From positions 1-64,000 of the forward strand of contig BPHC01000008.1 in assembly GCA_026003355.1 (NCBI GenBank): a DNA stretch of 64,000 nucleotides, read 5' to 3'. Of this stretch, positions 5,903 through 14,553 are shown piece by piece. The notes below the pieces were generated by a model. The model ran no database searches. It worked only from the letters and a program-made list of their open reading frames with translations, and was not told the origin of the DNA. Within the stretch, counting starts at the first letter, position 1, and the number at the start of each line of letters is the position of its first letter. Origin of the DNA: Cyclobacteriaceae bacterium. GTDB taxonomy: Bacteria; Bacteroidota; Bacteroidia; Cytophagales; Cyclobacteriaceae. Both the position numbers and the translations under genes were made by a program.

Positions 5903-8888
5903 ATGACTAAAGAGCAACAAATAGAAAATAGTTTAATAGCCAAACTCACGGACCTGAAATACACTTACCGCCCGGACATCAGGGACAGGGCCTCACTGGA
6001 AAAGAATTTCCGTGAGAAGTTTCAGGCACTCAACAGAGTAAACCTCACCGATGCCGAATTTGCCCGACTTCGGGACGAAATGATTACTTCGGATGTGTTT
6101 GTCGCTTCAAAAAGATTACGAGAAATAAACACTTTTATCCGCGAAGACGGAACGCCTTTGCATTACACTTTGGTAAACATCAAAGATTGGTGCAAAAACG
6201 AGTTTGAAGTTATTCATCAACTTCGCATCAATACAGAAAACAGCTATCATCGTTATGATGTCATTTTATTGATTAACGGAGTTCCTGTTGTTCAAATTGA
6301 ACTTAAAAGTCTGGAAGTAAGCCCACGAAAAGCAATGCAGCAAATTGTGGACTATAAAAGCGACCCGGGCAACGGTTATACAAACTCATTGCTTTGCTTC
6401 ATGCAGCTTTTTATCGTTACCAATCGCAGTAACACCTATTATTTCGCTAACAACAACCCGCTTCATTTCAGATTTAATGCAGACGAACAATTTCTACCCG
6501 TTTATCAATTTGCCAATGAGGACAATAAAAAAATCACACACATAGATGATTTCGCAGAAAAGTTTCTCAGCAAATGCACACTTGCCGAAATGATAAGCAA
6601 ATACATGGTGCTGGTGCAAAGCGAACAAAAACTGCTCGTCATGCGGCCCTATCAGATTTATGCCGTGAAAGCCATCGTAAATTGCATCGAACAAAACCGC
6701 GGAAACGGCTATATATGGCACACCACCGGAAGCGGAAAAACGCTCACATCTTTTAAAGCATCTACCCTGCTCAAAGAAAATCCCAATATTGAAAAATGCC
6801 TCTTTGTCGTTGACCGCAAAGACCTGGACAAGCAAACCCGCGAAGAGTTCAACCGATTTCAGGAAGGTTGCGTAGAAGAAAACACCAATACCGAAACATT
6901 AGTTAGACGAATGCTTTCGGATGATTACGCTAACAAAGTAATTGTAACAACCATTCAAAAATTAGGACTGGCACTCGACCCCAACAACAAAAACAACTAT
7001 AAAGAAAGGTTGCAACCATTAAGAAACAAACGCATCGTTTTTATTTTTGACGAATGTCATCGTTCACAGTTTGGCGAAAATCATAAAGCCATCAAAGAAT
7101 TTTTCCCCAATGCCCAACTTTTCGGTTTTACGGGAACACCCATTTTTGAAGACAATGCCACCTATAAACAAATTGACGGAACCGTTGGCTCGTATGTAAC
7201 TACCAAAGACATTTTCCAAAATCTGCTGCACCGATACACCATCACGCATGCCATAGAAGACCGGAACGTACTGCGTTTTCATATTGACTATTTCAAGCCC
7301 GAAAAAAATATAACCGTTGGAAGCACCGAACACAAAAAAGCCGTTGTAAATGCTATTCTGAAAAAACACGATGCGGCCACACACAACAGACGATTTAACG
7401 CATTATTGGCAACGGCTTCTATCAACGATGCTATTGAATATTACGAATTATTCAAATCAGTTGAGACGTTGCATGCAACGTCTCAACTGATTGCAACGTC
7501 TCTGCAGAATCCCGATTTCATTCCTTTAAATATTGCCTGTGTGTTCTCTCCGCCTGCCGAAGGAAATAGAGATGTGTTGCAATTACAAGAAGATTTAGAG
7601 CAAGAAAAAGCCGACAACAAAATTGAACCCGAAAAAAAGAAAAAAGCACTGGAAGCCATTATCAACGATTACAACAAACAATATGGCACCAACCATAAAA
7701 TTACAGAGTTCGACCGCTATTACCAGGATGTGCAGCAACGCATAAAATTCCAGCAATTCAGCAATGCCGACTATCCACATAAAAATAAAATTGACATCAC
7801 CATTGTGGTGGATATGTTGCTTACCGGCTTTGATAGCAAATACCTGAACACCTTGTATGTAGATAAAAACCTGAAATACCACGGATTGATTCAGGCCTTC
7901 AGCCGAACCAACCGCGTGTTGAACGATACCAAGCCATACGGAAATATCCTGGATTTCAGGCAACAACAAGCAGAGGTAGACAAAGCCATTGCCCTATTCA
8001 GCGGAGAAACAGAACAACAAGCCAAAGAAATTTGGCTGGTAGAACCCGCACCCAAGGTAATTGAAAAATACGAGCAGGCAGTAAAAGCCATGGAAAAATG
8101 GATGCACGACAAAAACATGGTAGCAGAACCACAAGAAGTGTATAACATTAAAGGAGATGCCGCCCGTGTGGAGTTTATCAATCGCTTTAAAGAAGTGCAA
8201 CGCCTCAAAACCCAGCTTGACCAATACACCGACCTAACGGAAGAACAAAAAGCCAGGATTGAAGAACTGATGCCCGAAGAACAATTGCGCTCGTTCCGAA
8301 GCTCCTATCTTGGAAATTGCCAAACAACTCAAAGAAATTCAGCAAAAAGAAGGCAGCAGTGCCCCCGAAAATATTCAACAATTAGATTTTGAGTTTGTGC
8401 TGTTTGCTTCTGCACTTATTGATTACGATTACATCATGAACCTCATTGCCCAATATACCCGGCAGCCACCCAAAAAACAGAAAATGACCCGCGACCAGCT
8501 GATTGGCATCATGAGCAGCAGTGCCAACCTGATGGAAGAACGGGACGATATTGTTGAATACATCCACACCCTGGAAGCAGGAAAACCCCTCAACGAACAA
8601 CAAATTAAAGACGGCTATCAAAAATTTAAAGAGGAAAAAATTGCCAAACAATTGGCAGAAATATCCACCCGTCATGGCTTGGAAATTTCAGTATTGCAGC
8701 AATTTGTGGATACCATCATGAACCGGATGATTCTGGATACTGAAAAACTAAGCGAACTCTTTGAACCCTTTGACCTGGGTTGGAAAGAACGTACCAAACG
8801 CGAAGAAGCCCTGATGACCGATTTAATCCCTATCCTGAAAAAGAAAGCCGAAGGAAGAGAAATTAGCGGATTAAAAGCATATGAGTAA
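5903..8888 (+). pseudogene. hsdR: Type I restriction endonuclease subunit R, frameshifted
   Basis: HsdR, the nuclease and translocase subunit of a type I restriction complex. Frame 1 (5903-8392) holds the nuclease site Asp119...Glu133-Leu-Lys135, Walker A GSGKT (276-280), DECH (383-386), TGTP (410-413) and the arginine-finger motif QAFSRTNR (about 664). Near 8309-8313 the frame breaks: SSYL should continue as EIAKQLKEIQ, which lies in the next frame (8310-8888). One extra T or G explains it, and the repaired protein would be about 994 residues. The second frame opens with a TTG codon, but the homology is continuous with HsdR. A palindrome is inserted in frame at residues 518-530. As written, the C-terminal HsdM-contacting domain is lost from the main chain. 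Confidence 0.9.
7455..7502. repeat. 38-bp perfect palindrome plus third half-site inside hsdR
   Basis: Positions 7455-7492 form a perfect palindrome centred on GCATGC at 7473/7474, with core GAGACGTTGCATGCAACGTC. A third copy of the half-unit TGCAACGTCTC follows at 7492-7502. It is translated in frame as an insertion (SVETLHATSQLIATSLQ) between the conserved HsdR blocks ASINDAIEYYELFK and NPDFIPLNIACVFSPP, which normally lie close together. It looks like a small mobile palindromic repeat (REP or MITE-like) tolerated as a surface loop of the helicase part. Confidence 0.9.
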
Positions 8889-10317
8889 ATTGAACAATAT
8901 GCCGAATGAGAATAAACATATTGAATTTAAAAGAGAGTGGAATAAGGATGTAGATATAGAAAAAGAAGTTATTGCATTTCTTAACACTCCCGAGGGAGGT
9001 ACTATCTATATCGGTATTGAAAATAACGGTAATGTGGTAGGTGTTAACAACCCCGATTCTATCATTTTACAACTCAAAGACCGTTTAAAAAACAATATAT
9101 CTCCTTCTATTATGGGATTGTTTGATATAGTGCAAGAAACTATTAGCGGAAAACCAGTAATTAAAATAAAAATAGCCGGCGGAAGCGAAAAACCCTACTT
9201 TAAAAAGAAATATGGCATGTCCGAAAAGGGCTGCTACATACGAAACGGAACAGCGGCCGACCCTATGCCTCAAAATATGATTGACACCTTATTTGCATCG
9301 CGAACCCGCAATACCATCCGAAGAATATCTTCACCCCGCCGGAACTTAACATTTGAACAATTACAAATTTATTATCAAGAAACCGGAAAGCCCCTAAACA
9401 ATCATTTCAAAAAAAACCTTGAGCTATTAACAGATGATGGTAAGTTTAATCTTGTTGGTTATCTTTTAGCCGACAACAACACCTTTTCTGTTCAAGTGGC
9501 AAAATATGCCACCACCACTCGCGAACAACTTGTAGAAAAAGCCGAATTAGGCAATTGCTCACTCATAAAAGCCGCCAAAAGTGTACTTGAAAAAGTGGAT
9601 ATAGAAAATCGCACTTTTGTAAATATTACGTACAAAGAGCGTATAGAAAAAAGAAAGTGGCATTCCCTTGCATTACGCGAAGCCATTATAAACGCTTTTG
9701 TGCACGCTGATTATACCCTTGAAATTCCTCCAAAGTTTGAACTCTTTCCCGACAGAATAGAAATTACATCAGCCGGAGGATTACCGCAAAACCTTACCGA
9801 AGAAGAGTTTTTTGAAGGGTATTCCGTCCCGCGAAACAAAGAATTGATGCGCGTTTTTAAAGACCTTGAATTGGTGGAGCAACTCGGCACAGGCATACAA
9901 AGAATTTTACAATATTATAGCAAAGAGTGCTTTAAAATATCCCCCAATTTTATTCGCATTGTTTTCCCTGCCGATAAAGAGGTAGTAAAACATTTTCAAG
10001 AAAAAGATTTAATGAAGGAAGTCACCGAGCAAGTTACCCAGCAAGTTACCCAGCAAGTCACCCAGCAAGTTACCCAGCAAGTTACCCAGCAAGTCAAACA
10101 ACTGTTATCAGTAATGACAGAAACGCACAAACGAGAAGAATTACAAGAAAAACTTGGGCTCAAAGACAGAGAGCATTTCCGGAAAGAATATTTACAAGCG
10201 GCTATTGAATTAGGCATTGTAGAGCCCACCATACCTGATAAGCCAACCAGCAGTAAACAAAAATACCGCCTCACACCCTTGGGTAAAAAACTAAAACAAC
10301 AATTAAAAAATTCGTAA
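8881..10317 (+). CDS. AlbA_2 / HATPase domain protein (Schlafen-like, RecG-related family)
   Basis: 478-residue ATP-binding protein. An AlbA_2 (Schlafen AlbA) domain spans about residues 8-140 (IEFKREWN, FLNTPEGGTIYIGIENNG, KCYIRNG-like SEKGCYIRNGT). A HATPase_c_4 region lies at about 260-360 (REAIINAFVHADY, LFPDRIEITSAGGLP, LGTGIQRIL). Next come six QQVT-type four-residue repeats (381-404) and a C-terminal winged-helix-like domain (KREELQEKLGL). Such proteins are often called transcriptional regulators or putative helicases; the activity is unproven. The start overlaps the hsdR stop by 8 bp, and hsdS follows 23 bp later, so it is an integral accessory gene of the restriction operon. Codons are AT-rich like its neighbours. 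Confidence 0.82.
   Translation: MSKLNNMPNENKHIEFKREWNKDVDIEKEVIAFLNTPEGGTIYIGIENNGNVVGVNNPDSIILQLKDRLKNNISPSIMGLFDIVQETISGKPVIKIKIAGGSEKPYFKKKYGMSEKGCYIRNGTAADPMPQNMIDTLFASRTRNTIRRISSPRRNLTFEQLQIYYQETGKPLNNHFKKNLELLTDDGKFNLVGYLLADNNTFSVQVAKYATTTREQLVEKAELGNCSLIKAAKSVLEKVDIENRTFVNITYKERIEKRKWHSLALREAIINAFVHADYTLEIPPKFELFPDRIEITSAGGLPQNLTEEEFFEGYSVPRNKELMRVFKDLELVEQLGTGIQRILQYYSKECFKISPNFIRIVFPADKEVVKHFQEKDLMKEVTEQVTQQVTQQVTQQVTQQVTQQVKQLLSVMTETHKREELQEKLGLKDREHFRKEYLQAAIELGIVEPTIPDKPTSSKQKYRLTPLGKKLKQQLKNS
10021..10092 (+). repeat. Six 12-bp coding repeats (QQVT)
   Basis: Six tandem 12-bp units of the form GTTACCCAGCAA, with GTC/GTT variants and the first unit reading GAG for CAG, encode VTEQ followed by VTQQ repeats. 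Unit length is a multiple of three, so slippage would change the linker length between the HATPase and winged-helix parts without breaking the frame. Confidence 0.93.
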
Positions 10318-10340: not shown

Positions 10341-11624
10341 ATGAAAACTAAAACCGATAAACCTGCCCTTATCCCCCGCCTCCGCTTCCCCGAATTCCAA
10401 AATAGCGGAGAGTGGGAAGTGAAAAGGTTGGGGGAGGTGTTTAAACTACAAGATGGCTATTCCTTTAGTTCAAAGGAATTATCTCATAAAGCAAATGATG
10501 ATGAGTCTTATCAGGTTGTAAGGATTACAGAAATTAATAACAAAAATAAGAATGAAGATAAAGTCTATATTTCATACGAAACTGTTAAAAAAAATAATTT
10601 AGAATGTTTTAAGATAACCAAAGGGGATTTGCTTTTATCTTTAACAGGTGCGGCTGGATTTAATTTTTTTATTTGGAACGATAATAAAGAAGCATTTTTA
10701 AATCAGAGAACATTAAAATTGGTTCCAAAAGAAGAAAATAATAATTCTATAAAATATTTGGTAGAACCTCTTTTATTTAAGAAAATAAATTCATTTGGGA
10801 CAGGACAAAATAATAACTTATCAAAATCAATATTAGAAAACCTAAAACTCCCCCTTCCCCCCCTTCCCGAACAACAAAAAATCGCAGATTGTCTGTCGTC
10901 CCTGGATGCCCTTATCACAGCCGGGCGCCAAAAACTGCAAGCCCTCAAAGACCACAAAAAGGGCTTACTGCAAAACCTTTTTCCCCGGGAAGGTGAAACC
11001 CTACCCAAACTCCGCTTCCCCGAATTCCAAAATAGCGGAGAGTGGGAAGTGAAAAGGTTGGAAGATTTTGGATATTTTATTAGAGGATTAACATACAGTT
11101 CGAAAGATGTTTCTGATGATGGGCTATTAGTTATACGTGCAGGAAATATTAAAAATCAAAATCTAGTGCTGGACGATGATTTAGTTTTCGTTAACAAAAA
11201 AATTCATAAAGAATTATATCTAAAGGCTGGTGATATAGTAATTTGTATGTCCAGCGGTAGCAGGTCCTTGGTTGGAAAAAACGCAGAGTATGTTGGAAAT
11301 TATCCAACTGATTTAACTGTAGGTGCATTTTGCTCCATTTTTAGAACTGATAATAGATTGATGAAATATATTTTTCAGACAAGGGCTTACGAAAAGTTCA
11401 TCTCTCTTTCGATTGGAGAAGGAAATATTAAAAACTTAAGTGATACTGATCTGGAATTATATGAGTTTTTCGTTCCTGAAATTCCAGCCGAGCAACAAAA
11501 AATCGCGGCTTGTTTGTCGTCCCTTGATGATTTAATAAACGCACAAACACAAAAAATAGAACTTTTGGAATTGCATAAAAAAGGATTGTTGCAGGGGTTG
11601 TTTCCGCAACTGTCTGAACTATGA
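10341..11624 (+). CDS. hsdS: Type I restriction specificity subunit S
   Basis: 427-residue DNA-recognition subunit. It has two half-subunits, each beginning with the same LRFPEFQNSGEWEVKRL block (about residues 14-30 and 224-240), a variable target-recognition domain, and a conserved coiled-coil spacer (EQQKIADCLSSLDALI and EQQKIAACLSSLDDLI, with KKGLLQ(N/G)LFP). The two recognition domains differ from each other, so the target should be bipartite and asymmetric. The DNA for the shared block is a 52-bp exact direct repeat. Copies of the last 15 codons recur in the 132-bp repeats downstream. It lies between the AlbA_2 gene and the GxxExxY/hsdM genes. Confidence 0.93.
   Translation: MKTKTDKPALIPRLRFPEFQNSGEWEVKRLGEVFKLQDGYSFSSKELSHKANDDESYQVVRITEINNKNKNEDKVYISYETVKKNNLECFKITKGDLLLSLTGAAGFNFFIWNDNKEAFLNQRTLKLVPKEENNNSIKYLVEPLLFKKINSFGTGQNNNLSKSILENLKLPLPPLPEQQKIADCLSSLDALITAGRQKLQALKDHKKGLLQNLFPREGETLPKLRFPEFQNSGEWEVKRLEDFGYFIRGLTYSSKDVSDDGLLVIRAGNIKNQNLVLDDDLVFVNKKIHKELYLKAGDIVICMSSGSRSLVGKNAEYVGNYPTDLTVGAFCSIFRTDNRLMKYIFQTRAYEKFISLSIGEGNIKNLSDTDLELYEFFVPEIPAEQQKIAACLSSLDDLINAQTQKIELLELHKKGLLQGLFPQLSEL
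10380..10431. repeat. 52-bp direct repeat, copy 1 (hsdS first half)
   Basis: Identical over 52 bp to 11010-11061. It encodes the conserved entry to each target-recognition domain. Recombination between the copies would delete or exchange the first recognition domain in frame, since the 630-bp spacing is divisible by three. Confidence 0.93.
11010..11061. repeat. 52-bp direct repeat, copy 2 (hsdS second half)
   Basis: Second copy of the repeat at 10380-10431, at the start of the second half-subunit of HsdS. Confidence 0.93.
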
Positions 11625-12007
11625 TTTTTGTGATTAAATGATGAATATGATTAAAAATATAGCAAGTAAAATCAAGGTAATCCTTCATTCATACCCATCA
11701 GGGTTCAGACAAAAGGTTTATTGCAGGGCTTATTTCCGCAACTGTCTGAACTATGATTTTTGTGATTAAATGATGAATATGATTAAAAATATAGCAAGTA
11801 AAATCAAGGTAATCCTTCATTCATACCCATCAGGGTTCAGACAAAAGGTTTATTGCAGGGCTTATTTCCGCAACTGTCTGAACTATGATTTTTGTGATTA
11901 AATGATGAATATGATTAAAAATATAGCAAGTAAAATCAAGGTAATCCTTCATTCATACCCATCAGGGTTCAGACAAAAGGTTTATTGCAGGGCTTATTTC
12001 CGCAACT
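11612..12007. repeat. Three tandem 132-bp units after hsdS
   Basis: Three units start at 11612, 11744 and 11876, apparently identical by eye, with a fourth partial start at 12008. Each unit begins GTCTGAACTATGATTTT, contains GTTCAGAC about 90 bp later, and ends with a copy of the hsdS 3' coding end (KGLLQGLFPQL). The first unit begins at the hsdS terminus itself, so the array arose by duplication of the hsdS tail plus about 100 bp of spacer. The 410 bp between the hsdS stop and 12035 contain nothing else. A 42-codon reading frame recurs in the units but looks accidental. Confidence 0.92.
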
Positions 12008-12034
12008 GTCTTAACTATGATTGTAAATGATTAA

Positions 12035-12454
12035 ATGAACACTATGATTAAAAACGAATATCCACTTTCAGAACTCACAGGCAAAATTATAGGCTGTGCA
12101 ATGGAAGTGCACCGGATTTTAGGGAATGGATTTCAGGAAGTGATTTACCAAAGGGCTTTGGCAAAAGAAATGAGCATTCAAGGTTTGGAGTTTTCAAGAG
12201 AACACGAAATGACTATTTTTTATAAAGGTGATGAAATAGGAACAAGGCGTGTGGATTTTTTTGTAGAGGGCAAAGTGATGGTAGAATTAAAAGCCGTCAT
12301 ACAATTAGAAGATGTGCATTTAGCACAAGCTATAAATTATTTGGAAGCCTACGGATTAGAAATTGGTTTGTTGATAAATTTTGGCAACACCTCCTTACAA
12401 TTTAAAAGAGTAATGAAACCCAATAAAAATCATAGTCAATCAAAAAATCAATAA
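12035..12454 (+). CDS. GxxExxY protein (PDDEXK-like)
   Basis: 139-residue member of the GxxExxY family, related to PD-(D/E)xK nucleases. The name-giving motif reads GNGFQEVIY (about residues 31-39), followed by RRVDFFVEGKVMVELKA (about 71-87), where D and ExK fit a PDDEXK core, and AQAINYLEAYGLEIGLLINFG. Activity is unproven. It lies between hsdS and hsdM, has its own flanking inverted repeats (12008-12024 and 12921-12937), and its 3' 185 bp were duplicated by an insertion element, so the gene remains intact upstream of that element. The ATG at 12035 is used; a second ATG at 12044 is equally possible. Confidence 0.85.
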   Translation: MNTMIKNEYPLSELTGKIIGCAMEVHRILGNGFQEVIYQRALAKEMSIQGLEFSREHEMTIFYKGDEIGTRRVDFFVEGKVMVELKAVIQLEDVHLAQAINYLEAYGLEIGLLINFGNTSLQFKRVMKPNKNHSQSKNQ

Positions 12455-12457
12455 AAT
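12273..12457. repeat. 185-bp target duplication, left copy
   Basis: The last 185 bp up to the left inverted repeat of the IS remnant, comprising the 3' part of the GxxExxY gene. Repeated at 12741-12925 with two substitutions. Confidence 0.88.
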
Positions 12458-12740
12458 CCTGTTTTGCGCACTTTTAAAAAAGCGTTCTTCCAATATCCAT
12501 TTCCCACTATGAAAAAGTTTTCCTAATCGGCTAATTTTGGGTGTCCCGTTGCTATTTTTGCAGGATGTTTATACGCAAGAAGAAAAATAAAAGTGGCACC
12601 GCCAGCATTCAAATCATTGATAAATCGTCAAATCCAAAAAGAAAACCACTTTATTGTTACCAATAAATGTGCAATAACAAGAGATTTTAAAGGCATTTGA
12701 CATTAATTTTTAGTACGGGTGTCCCAATGCGCAAAATAGG
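12458..12740. mobile_element. Internally deleted IS1634-like element
   Basis: A 283-bp element bounded by 13-bp inverted repeats, CCTGTTTTGCGCA (12458-12470) and TGCGCAAAATAGG (12728-12740), with one mismatch. Inside, 12565-12666 encodes 33 residues beginning MFIRKKKNKSGTASIQIIDK, which I recognise as the conserved N-terminus of IS1634-family (IS4 group) transposases. The rest of the transposase is missing, so the copy is non-autonomous. Both flanks carry the same 185 bp, and each copy abuts an inverted repeat. Unusually long target duplications are a known trait of the IS1634 family. Confidence 0.8.
12565..12666 (+). pseudogene. IS1634-type transposase, N-terminal fragment
   Basis: 33-codon remnant starting at the ATG at 12565. 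The first 20 residues match the conserved start of IS1634-family transposases; after SSNPKRKP the sequence departs from the family and reaches a stop at 12664-12666. The catalytic DDE region is absent. Confidence 0.7.
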
Positions 12741-12925
12741 AAGTGATGGTAGAATTAAAAGCCATCATACAATTAGAAGATTTGCATTTAGCACAAGCTA
12801 TAAATTATTTGGAAGCCTACGGATTAGAAATTGGTTTGTTGATAAATTTTGGCAACACCTCCTTACAATTTAAAAGAGTAATGAAACCCAATAAAAATCA
12901 TAGTCAATCAAAAAATCAATAAAAT
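12741..12925. repeat. 185-bp target duplication, right copy
   Basis: Duplicate of 12273-12457 with G to A and G to T substitutions. It contains an out-of-context 3' fragment of the GxxExxY gene (from VMVELKA to the stop) without a start, followed directly by the native sequence leading to hsdM. Confidence 0.88.
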
Positions 12926-12941
12926 CATAGTTCAGACAATT

Positions 12942-14553
12942 ATGACAACCAACAACCATACCGAATTAGGCAAAACCCTCTGGAAAATCGCAGATGAACT
13001 GCGCGGAGCCATGAACGCTGACGACTTCCGCGATTACATGCTTTCGTTTTTGTTTCTGCGTTACCTGAGCGACAACTACGAAGAAGCTGCCCGCAAAGAA
13101 CTCGGCAAAGATTACCCATCGCTCAACGGAAACGGTGGCAAAACCCCATTATCCCTCTGGTATGAACAAAACCCGGCCGATGTGCCTGATTTTGAAAAGC
13201 AGATGCGCAGAAAGATACACTATGTTATTAAACCACAATATCTGTGGAACCACATTGCACACCTTGCCAAAACCCAAAGCAAAGATTTGCTTCGCACCTT
13301 GCAGGAAGGTTTTAAATACATAGAAAATGAATCGTTTGAAAGCACCTTTCAGGGTCTGTTTTCTGAAATCAATCTCGATTCAGAAAAACTTGGCAAAAAC
13401 TACGAAGAACGGAACAAAAAGCTCTGCAACATCATTCAGAAAATTGCCGAAGGCATCAATCAGTTTTCTACCGATAAAGATATATTAGGCGATGCGTATG
13501 AATACCTGATTGGTCAGTTTGCCGCAGGTTCCGGTAAAAAGGCAGGCGAATTTTATACCCCACAACGCATCTCGGATATTCTTTCCGAAATTGTTATTCT
13601 CGACAGCCAAAACCCCGCACAGGGCAAAAAGAAAAAAATTGAACGCGTGCTGGACTTTGCCTGCGGTTCGGGTTCTTTGTTGCTCAACGTCCGCAAAAAA
13701 ATGATGAACGCAGGCGGAACTATCGGCAAAATTTTTGGACAGGAAAAAAACATCACTACCTACAACCTTGCAAGAATGAACATGCTGTTGCATGGCGTGA
13801 AAGACACCGAATTTGACATCCATCACGGAGATACGTTGCAGAACGACTGGGAGATTTTAAGAGAAATCAATCCCGCAAAAAAATTAGAATTTGATGCCAT
13901 TGTAGCCAATCCGCCTTTTAGTTTAAAATGGGAACCTACCGACACACTCAAAGACGATTTTCGGTTTAAGAACTACGGCCTGGCACCCAAATCGGCCGCT
14001 GATTTTGCCTTTTCTGTTACATGGTTTTCATTTTTTAAGCAAAGAAGGCACCATGGCCATTATATTACCACATGGAGTTTTGTTCAGGGGAGGAGCGGAA
14101 GAAAAAATCAGAAAAAAATTATTGGAAGACGGAAATATTGACACCATCATCGGACTTCCTGCCAATCTGTTTTTCTCCACCGGTATTCCCGTTTGTATTT
14201 TGGTTTTAAAGAAATGCAAAAAGTTTGAAGATGTGTTGTTTATCAATGCCGCTGAACACTATGAAAAAGGAAAACGGCAAAATACCCTGCTGCCCGAACA
14301 CATTGATAAGATTGTTAACACCTATAAACACCGTAAAGAAGAAGACCGTTACTCGCGCAGAGTATCCATGCATGAAATCGGCAAGAACGATTTTAACCTG
14401 AACATATCACGTTATGTCAGCACATCGCAAGAAGAAGAACCCATTGACCTGAAAGAAATAAATAAAAAACTCGTTGAGATAGAAAAAGAAATAACCAAAG
14501 CCAGAGAGACACATAATCAATTTTTAAAGGAATTGGGGCTACCGCCAATATAA
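12942..14553 (+). pseudogene. hsdM: Type I modification methyltransferase subunit M, frameshifted
   Basis: HsdM, the N6-adenine methyltransferase of the type I complex. The N-terminal HsdM domain (KTLWKIADELRGAMNADDF, FLFLRYLSDNYEE) is followed by the SAM-binding motif DFACGSGS (about residues 238-245) and the catalytic NPPF (323-326). At 14010-14013 a run of four T breaks the frame: KSAADFAF should continue LLHGFHFLSKEGTMAIILPHG, which is in the next frame (to 14553). Removing one T restores a protein of about 536 residues. As written, the chain ends at 14141 and lacks the C-terminal third. It is preceded by the right end of the GxxExxY cassette, only a few bases before the ATG. Confidence 0.9.

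Follow-up and report, generated by a model that had tools for sequence, protein, structure and literature searches.

The analysed window is a 64,000-nucleotide stretch of a Cyclobacteriaceae genome (assembly GCA_026003355.1, contig BPHC01000008.1). Within a type I restriction-modification operon of this window, an intact GxxExxY gene is followed by a short element remnant that lies between two direct repeats. The features of the locus are as follows:

12035-12454, + strand: intact GxxExxY gene (PDDEXK_3 / TIGR04256), the insertion host
12273-12457, + strand: direct repeat copy 1, the target, made up of the GxxExxY 3' part and the 3 bp that follow; single copy in four compared relatives
12458-12740, + strand: stub of an IS1634-type element, 283 bp, recognised by alignment to L045
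12458-12470, + strand: left terminal inverted repeat CCTGTTTTGCGCA; relatives share CCTG-type ends
12539-12547, + strand: subterminal GGGTGTCCC, also close to the left end in full-length relatives
12565-12630, + strand: transposase N-terminus remnant, 22 codons, MFIRKKKNKSGTASIQIIDKSS
12630/12631, no strand: internal deletion junction, about 1375 bp absent relative to L045
12633-12713, + strand: transposase 3' end remnant with the final 26 codons, of which one has become a stop, and the original stop codon; its frame differs from that of the N-terminal remnant
12717-12725, + strand: subterminal GGGTGTCCC close to the right end
12728-12740, - strand: right terminal inverted repeat, CCTATTTTGCGCA when read inward
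12741-12925, + strand: direct repeat copy 2, with a GxxExxY 3' fragment of 59 codons (12743-12922)

The direct repeats are 185 bp each (186 when an ambiguous C is counted), differ at two positions (G12296/A12764 and G12314/T12782) and enclose 283 bp, as a previous sequence-only reading of this DNA had described. The 13-bp inverted repeats that it reported at 12458 and 12740 are present as well, with one mismatch that it did not mention. It had further proposed that the GxxExxY gene was rescued by a duplication recreating its 3' end. This part does not hold: the left copy is the original gene, and the left junction lies 3 bp past its stop codon (12452-12454). The fragment to the right of the stub covers profile positions 71-116.

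L045, which matches the stub best among copies whose ends are paired and whose length is 1500-2000 bp, is a full-length relative of 1658 bp from a genome of the same class as that of the window, and it aligns to all 283 bp. The stub corresponds to the first 173 and the last 110 bp of L045, with identities of 126/173 and 96/110 and alignment scores of 154 and 164 (shuffled stubs reach no more than 30 on either side). The 33-residue open reading frame at 12565-12663, with matches in 10 of 390 genomes of the order (own genome included), had been read as the start of an IS1634-family transposase. This is correct for approximately 22 residues, which resemble IS1634-type transposases. The remaining residues are the transposase 3' end, read in the wrong frame after the internal deletion.

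The surroundings of the insertion are repetitive. Just ahead of GxxExxY, 3.6 tandem copies of a 132-bp unit (11579-12054, 96% matches) reiterate the hsdS 3' end together with the sequence downstream of it. Another tandem repeat with a 12-bp unit (10019-10096) encodes a VTQQ run within the gene of a Schlafen AlbA_2 / Fic-like C-terminal protein (8881-10317). Both hsdR (5903-8392/8310-8888, with only the first frame covered by the profile scan) and hsdM (12942-14141/14005-14553) seem to be split across overlapping frames, which may reflect mutation, phase variation or an assembly error. A search of 11400-13100 against Rfam gave no match up to E=1.

The stub fragment, too short for any Pfam or NCBIfam model, matched none, and the family assignment comes from its relatives. 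The NCBIfam model NF033559 (IS1634 family) matched 10 of 10 full-length relatives scanned, and L045 falls inside their clade in the tree. With the L045 alignment covering the entire stub, this supports the proposal of an IS1634-like element reduced by deletion. The family table of PMC2266710 lists ends of the type C-----YT and a target duplication of 5-6 bp. Both stub ends, CCTGTTTT and CCTATTTT, follow this end rule, and the size of the stub falls short of the 1500-2000 bp of the family because of the internal deletion. The 185-bp duplication departs from the tabulated value, which is not family-defining because IS1634 and IS1549 themselves have direct repeats of 8-514 bp according to the same review, in line with the statement of the sequence-only reading that long target duplications are known for the family. 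The locus shows long repeats of this IS1634/IS1549 type, with a single copy at the empty site in four relatives. We classify the stub as a deletion derivative of an IS1634 member and not as an intact member. It is a decayed additional representative of an already known kind of element, and its value is that of a pointer to a large natural experiment on transposition.

In the own genome (2.76 Mb, 15 contigs, 95% complete), no further stub copy was found among all 18 candidates scored, and no IS1634 transposase was detected. The 11-mer TGTTTTGCGCA, derived from CCTGTTTTGCGCA-like ends, occurs at 10 sites in this genome and its reversed control at one; the nine sites outside the locus have no inner sequence in common with the stub (69 bases inward), look like chance and were rejected as element ends. 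The stub might itself have transposed as a MITE-like element mobilised in trans by one of its full-length relatives, so that the stub made the 185-bp duplication, a course of events that we consider rather unlikely. It does retain both ends, and PMC3852290 describes IS1634-type MITEs in Methanosarcina, derived from ISMba11 (247 bp) and from ISMac10 (249 bp), that are likewise short, lack a transposase and keep both ends. The former is present in 23 copies (6-bp repeats) and the latter in 15 (0 bp), whereas the stub occurs once, flanked by a 185-bp repeat, in a genome that now shows no IS1634 transposase. The several short copies at different sites that define a MITE were not seen, as no second copy appeared among the matches listed for 195 relatives or for 217 relatives of the L045 host, where two candidates were scored per genome and copies could be missed.

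The origin of the 185-bp repeat was analysed at empty sites. A search of 195 genomes (own genome included) gave matches to the region in 55. It returned 19 loci outside the own genome, of which four were compared. A model sequence with a single 185-bp copy produced one gapped alignment through the junction in 4/4 relatives, extending 13-25 bp past it, with identities of 79% (L163), 73% (L164), 71% (L165) and 80% (L172). Thus, the expectation that relatives without the element carry one 185-bp copy proved right in all four relatives compared. Upstream of the orthologous gene, L163 has 43-bp tandem units (1333-1511), which resemble the window sequence after GxxExxY. For a copy on a Rhodococcus plasmid, whose repeat measures 148 bp, the empty site is found in plasmid pDF02, colinear over 1295/1295 bp at 95.7% identity. 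In Aliarcobacter, where one copy has a 682-bp repeat, the related plasmid contains the repeated region a single time, with colinearity ending 92 bp short of the junction. These alignments indicate that the insertion created the 185-bp duplication.

To see how usual such repeats are, loci were collected from searches of the order, the class and the phylum, from 84,980 species (best 80 of 535 relatives) and from viral contigs. As similarity to a single clade was the basis of collection throughout, the repeat frequencies are valid for that clade. After removal of duplicates, 125 loci and the window gave 126 copies, with L029-L032, L129 and L130 (fragments or weak matches) outside this set. Element boundaries were set by the pattern C[CT][CT]G..TT and by end pairing. 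Twelve copies were dropped for unpaired ends (including L062 and L132, with 153- and 100-bp repeats by BLAST) and three for wrongly paired ends (L050, L091 and L118), leaving 111 with both ends recognised. Abutting repeats of 15 bp or more were present in 53 of these 111 copies, and in 47 of the 71 copies (window included) with at least 1 kb of flank on each side. The 53 repeats range from 16 to 629 bp, the longest being a lower bound as it begins at a contig end, with a median of 112 and quartiles of 72 and 190 bp; their lengths fit a shifted exponential or a lognormal distribution. Random boundary pairs in the same locus set had such a repeat in 0/2042 cases, a control that permitted no indels where the real count permitted up to three; it replaced an earlier control (41/934) contaminated by positions within true repeats. 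These counts corroborate the earlier claim that the element makes long target duplications. The accompanying claim that long duplications are rarely seen in Bacteroidota fails for this clade, in which about two thirds of the full-flank copies have them. Long repeats are likewise present in more distant copies, both in those 36-39% identical to the query and in a phylum-wide set, and long duplication appears to be what this element clade normally produces.

Plasmid copies from several phyla had long abutting repeats in 5/16 cases, namely in Persicobacter (415 bp), Aliarcobacter (682 bp) and three Rhodococcus copies (24-148 bp). The other 11 include Dietzia (5 bp) and one from Bacteroidota, Segatella, which falls far outside the long-repeat clade in the tree. 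With nine more Rhodococcus copies added, 8/12 have repeats of 24-148 bp. In a tree of 47 transposases, the long-repeat members are separate from a group to which the plasmid copies of Dietzia, Segatella and alphaproteobacterial origin belong, a provisional grouping that we use loosely as the tree has long branches. A Carnobacterium IS1634-type copy with tentative ends (L194, 2048-4753) has repeat pairs of 175 and 144 bp well outside the transposase gene.

No abutting 15-bp repeat was found in 24 of the 71 full-flank copies. Five of them (L044, L103, L123, L142 and L155) have the repeat displaced by 7-88 bp from one end. Direct repeats lying 37-274 bp off one element end, with the other end abutting, were seen in L044, L099, L142, L153 and L155. 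For L159 and L057, the right flanks (282 and 320 bp, respectively) recur with 100% identity directly beside another element copy in the same genome, and therefore these flanks were exchanged by recombination between element copies. Both partners came from whole-genome searches (two of two traced), and the flank swap among the copies already collected (10 groups, one with a single usable copy) revealed no swapped repeat. L127 has a 5-bp repeat (AAATT), and a similar stretch without interruption, located on its own contig, backs this: L127 sits in sequence resembling the left flank of L125 (83-85%), with a 5-bp overlap. L125 is the same element 13 kb away on this Bacteroidales contig, and has a 75-bp repeat. 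The remaining 16 of the 24 copies fall under none of these cases. L058 has a 7-bp match at the element ends that may be chance.

The junctions were compared by fixing the element ends from their own sequence and then counting the flanking bases. The base at -1 is T in 48/52 left and 44/52 right ends (read inward), the base at -2 is a pyrimidine in 47/52 at either end, and positions -3 and -4 at both ends, as well as -5 at the right end, are T-rich. Copies without a long repeat, short-flanked ones included, also have T at -1 (47/54 left, 46/53 right). The repeat ends away from the element carry T in 94/106 cases; therefore, the half-site is target-derived. The duplicated stretch tends to start with ARAAA and to finish with TTTYT, which is the same half-site inverted, and a strict YT core is present at both ends in 32 of 51 copies. 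Under leave-one-out scoring (n=51), the used sites rank in the top 2.5-2.6% of positions (medians; means 9% and 12%) and the inverted orientation is correct in 48/51 at each end. Left and right scores are uncorrelated (rho -0.05, n=51), and half-site score has no relation to distance at either end (n=51). A scanning model, in which the nearest site is taken, was unsupported, as the number of better-scoring sites within the stretch agrees with expectation (1097 observed, 1124.2 expected, n=51). Helical phasing of the repeat lengths was not detected (p 0.17-0.46). The window is a moderate case overall, with a weak left half-site (TAAAAT) and a better fitting right one (TCACTT). In Rhodococcus, the long repeats come without a T-tract (A at left -1 in 8/11 copies with both ends recognised), and therefore long duplication does not in general involve this half-site. 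The half-site sequence is a trait of the mainly Bacteroidota clade, and long duplication is more widely distributed.

The duplication made by a DDE transposase is normally short and almost constant in length, because both ends strike the target together. For the present locus, we regard a different course as probable, in which an internally deleted IS1634-family element inserted 3 bp downstream of the GxxExxY stop codon, with a 185-bp target duplication arising from independent joining of its ends. Each end would join the target immediately 5' of an ARAAA half-site, with attacks on opposite strands at inverted half-sites a variable distance apart. The stagger would then span the whole interval, and host DNA synthesis would fill it, leaving one copy on each side. 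DDE strand-transfer chemistry and gap filling by a host polymerase are the presumed steps; IS4-related elements attack the target through 3'-OH ends, as stated in the portion of PMC2266710 on these elements, and by analogy the same attack may operate in this clade. The transposase gene was presumably lost in place after insertion, but may instead have been lost beforehand. We lean, with somewhat less assurance than for the overall account, towards a split target: the halves of what other transposons use as a fixed palindromic target, recognised separately by one element end each, would lie inverted from a few bp to more than 600 bp apart, and their spacing rather than the transpososome would set the duplication length. 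The 75- and 5-bp repeats of L125 and L127, made by the same element, are expected if half-site spacing is free. If true, the two strand transfers would be independent, which would explain a puzzle raised in 1998-1999.

It is conceivable, if on the whole doubtful, that the two element ends find their targets on different sister DNA molecules, behind a replication fork (or a single-stranded gap), and that the duplication arises by sister joining and not by long gap filling. The broad range of lengths and the missing helical phase look as if there were no fixed transpososome-target geometry, which would suit this route. It should also yield deletions, whereas both traced repeat-less copies are recombinants. 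Considerably less probable is that the junction T-tract reflects a mere preference for AT-rich targets. The duplicated stretches are indeed slightly richer in A+T than the flanks (0.618 vs 0.589, p=0.0015), but the bias is strand-oriented, as seen from the 48/51 correct orientations at each end, and position-specific at -1 and -2. That the repeats were tandem duplications preceding the insertion at the junction, or products of recombination between element copies, has very little to recommend it: the locus and one relative are repeat-rich (the 132-bp and 43-bp units), but the empty sites in the four relatives and in Rhodococcus have single copies, and abutment at two ends in 53 copies is beyond coincidence.

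The clade can be compared with known systems. IS1634 from Mycoplasma mycoides and IS1549 from Mycobacterium smegmatis are likewise elements of a DDE-type family with long direct repeats of variable length. Unlike those reports, the present clade is large and mainly from Bacteroidota, its repeats are usual and reach at least 629 bp, and an Aliarcobacter plasmid has one of 682 bp. The inverted ARAAA/TTTYT half-sites are described here for this clade. Ordinary members of the family share the transposase type (NF033559 in the relatives), but make AT-rich duplications of 5-6 bp in the summary of PMC2266710, and the duplication of ISGka5 is given as 6 bp in the relevant passage of PMC8024623. In the 47-row tree, with its long-branch caveat, the long-repeat members group together, apart from the group with the 5-bp Dietzia copy.

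According to the 2008 review (PMC2266710), no mechanistic model had been put forward for the long variable duplications of IS1549 and IS1634; later models may exist. Half-sites for long IS1634-type repeats were not found in the titles and abstract openings of the open-access papers searched, and the original papers (PMC93511, PMC106989) may say more. What is new here are 53 junction pairs, most with inverted half-sites and without phasing, which provide a concrete and testable model. Each insertion is also marked by its long repeats, from which recombination between copies can be recognised in genome sequences, and annotation expecting 5-6 bp would overlook these repeats. In M. mycoides PG1, coordinates in part of PMC1798306 place 13-kb repeats on both sides of an IS1634-sized gap, and these could, in our reading and not that of the source, represent the same process at a larger scale.
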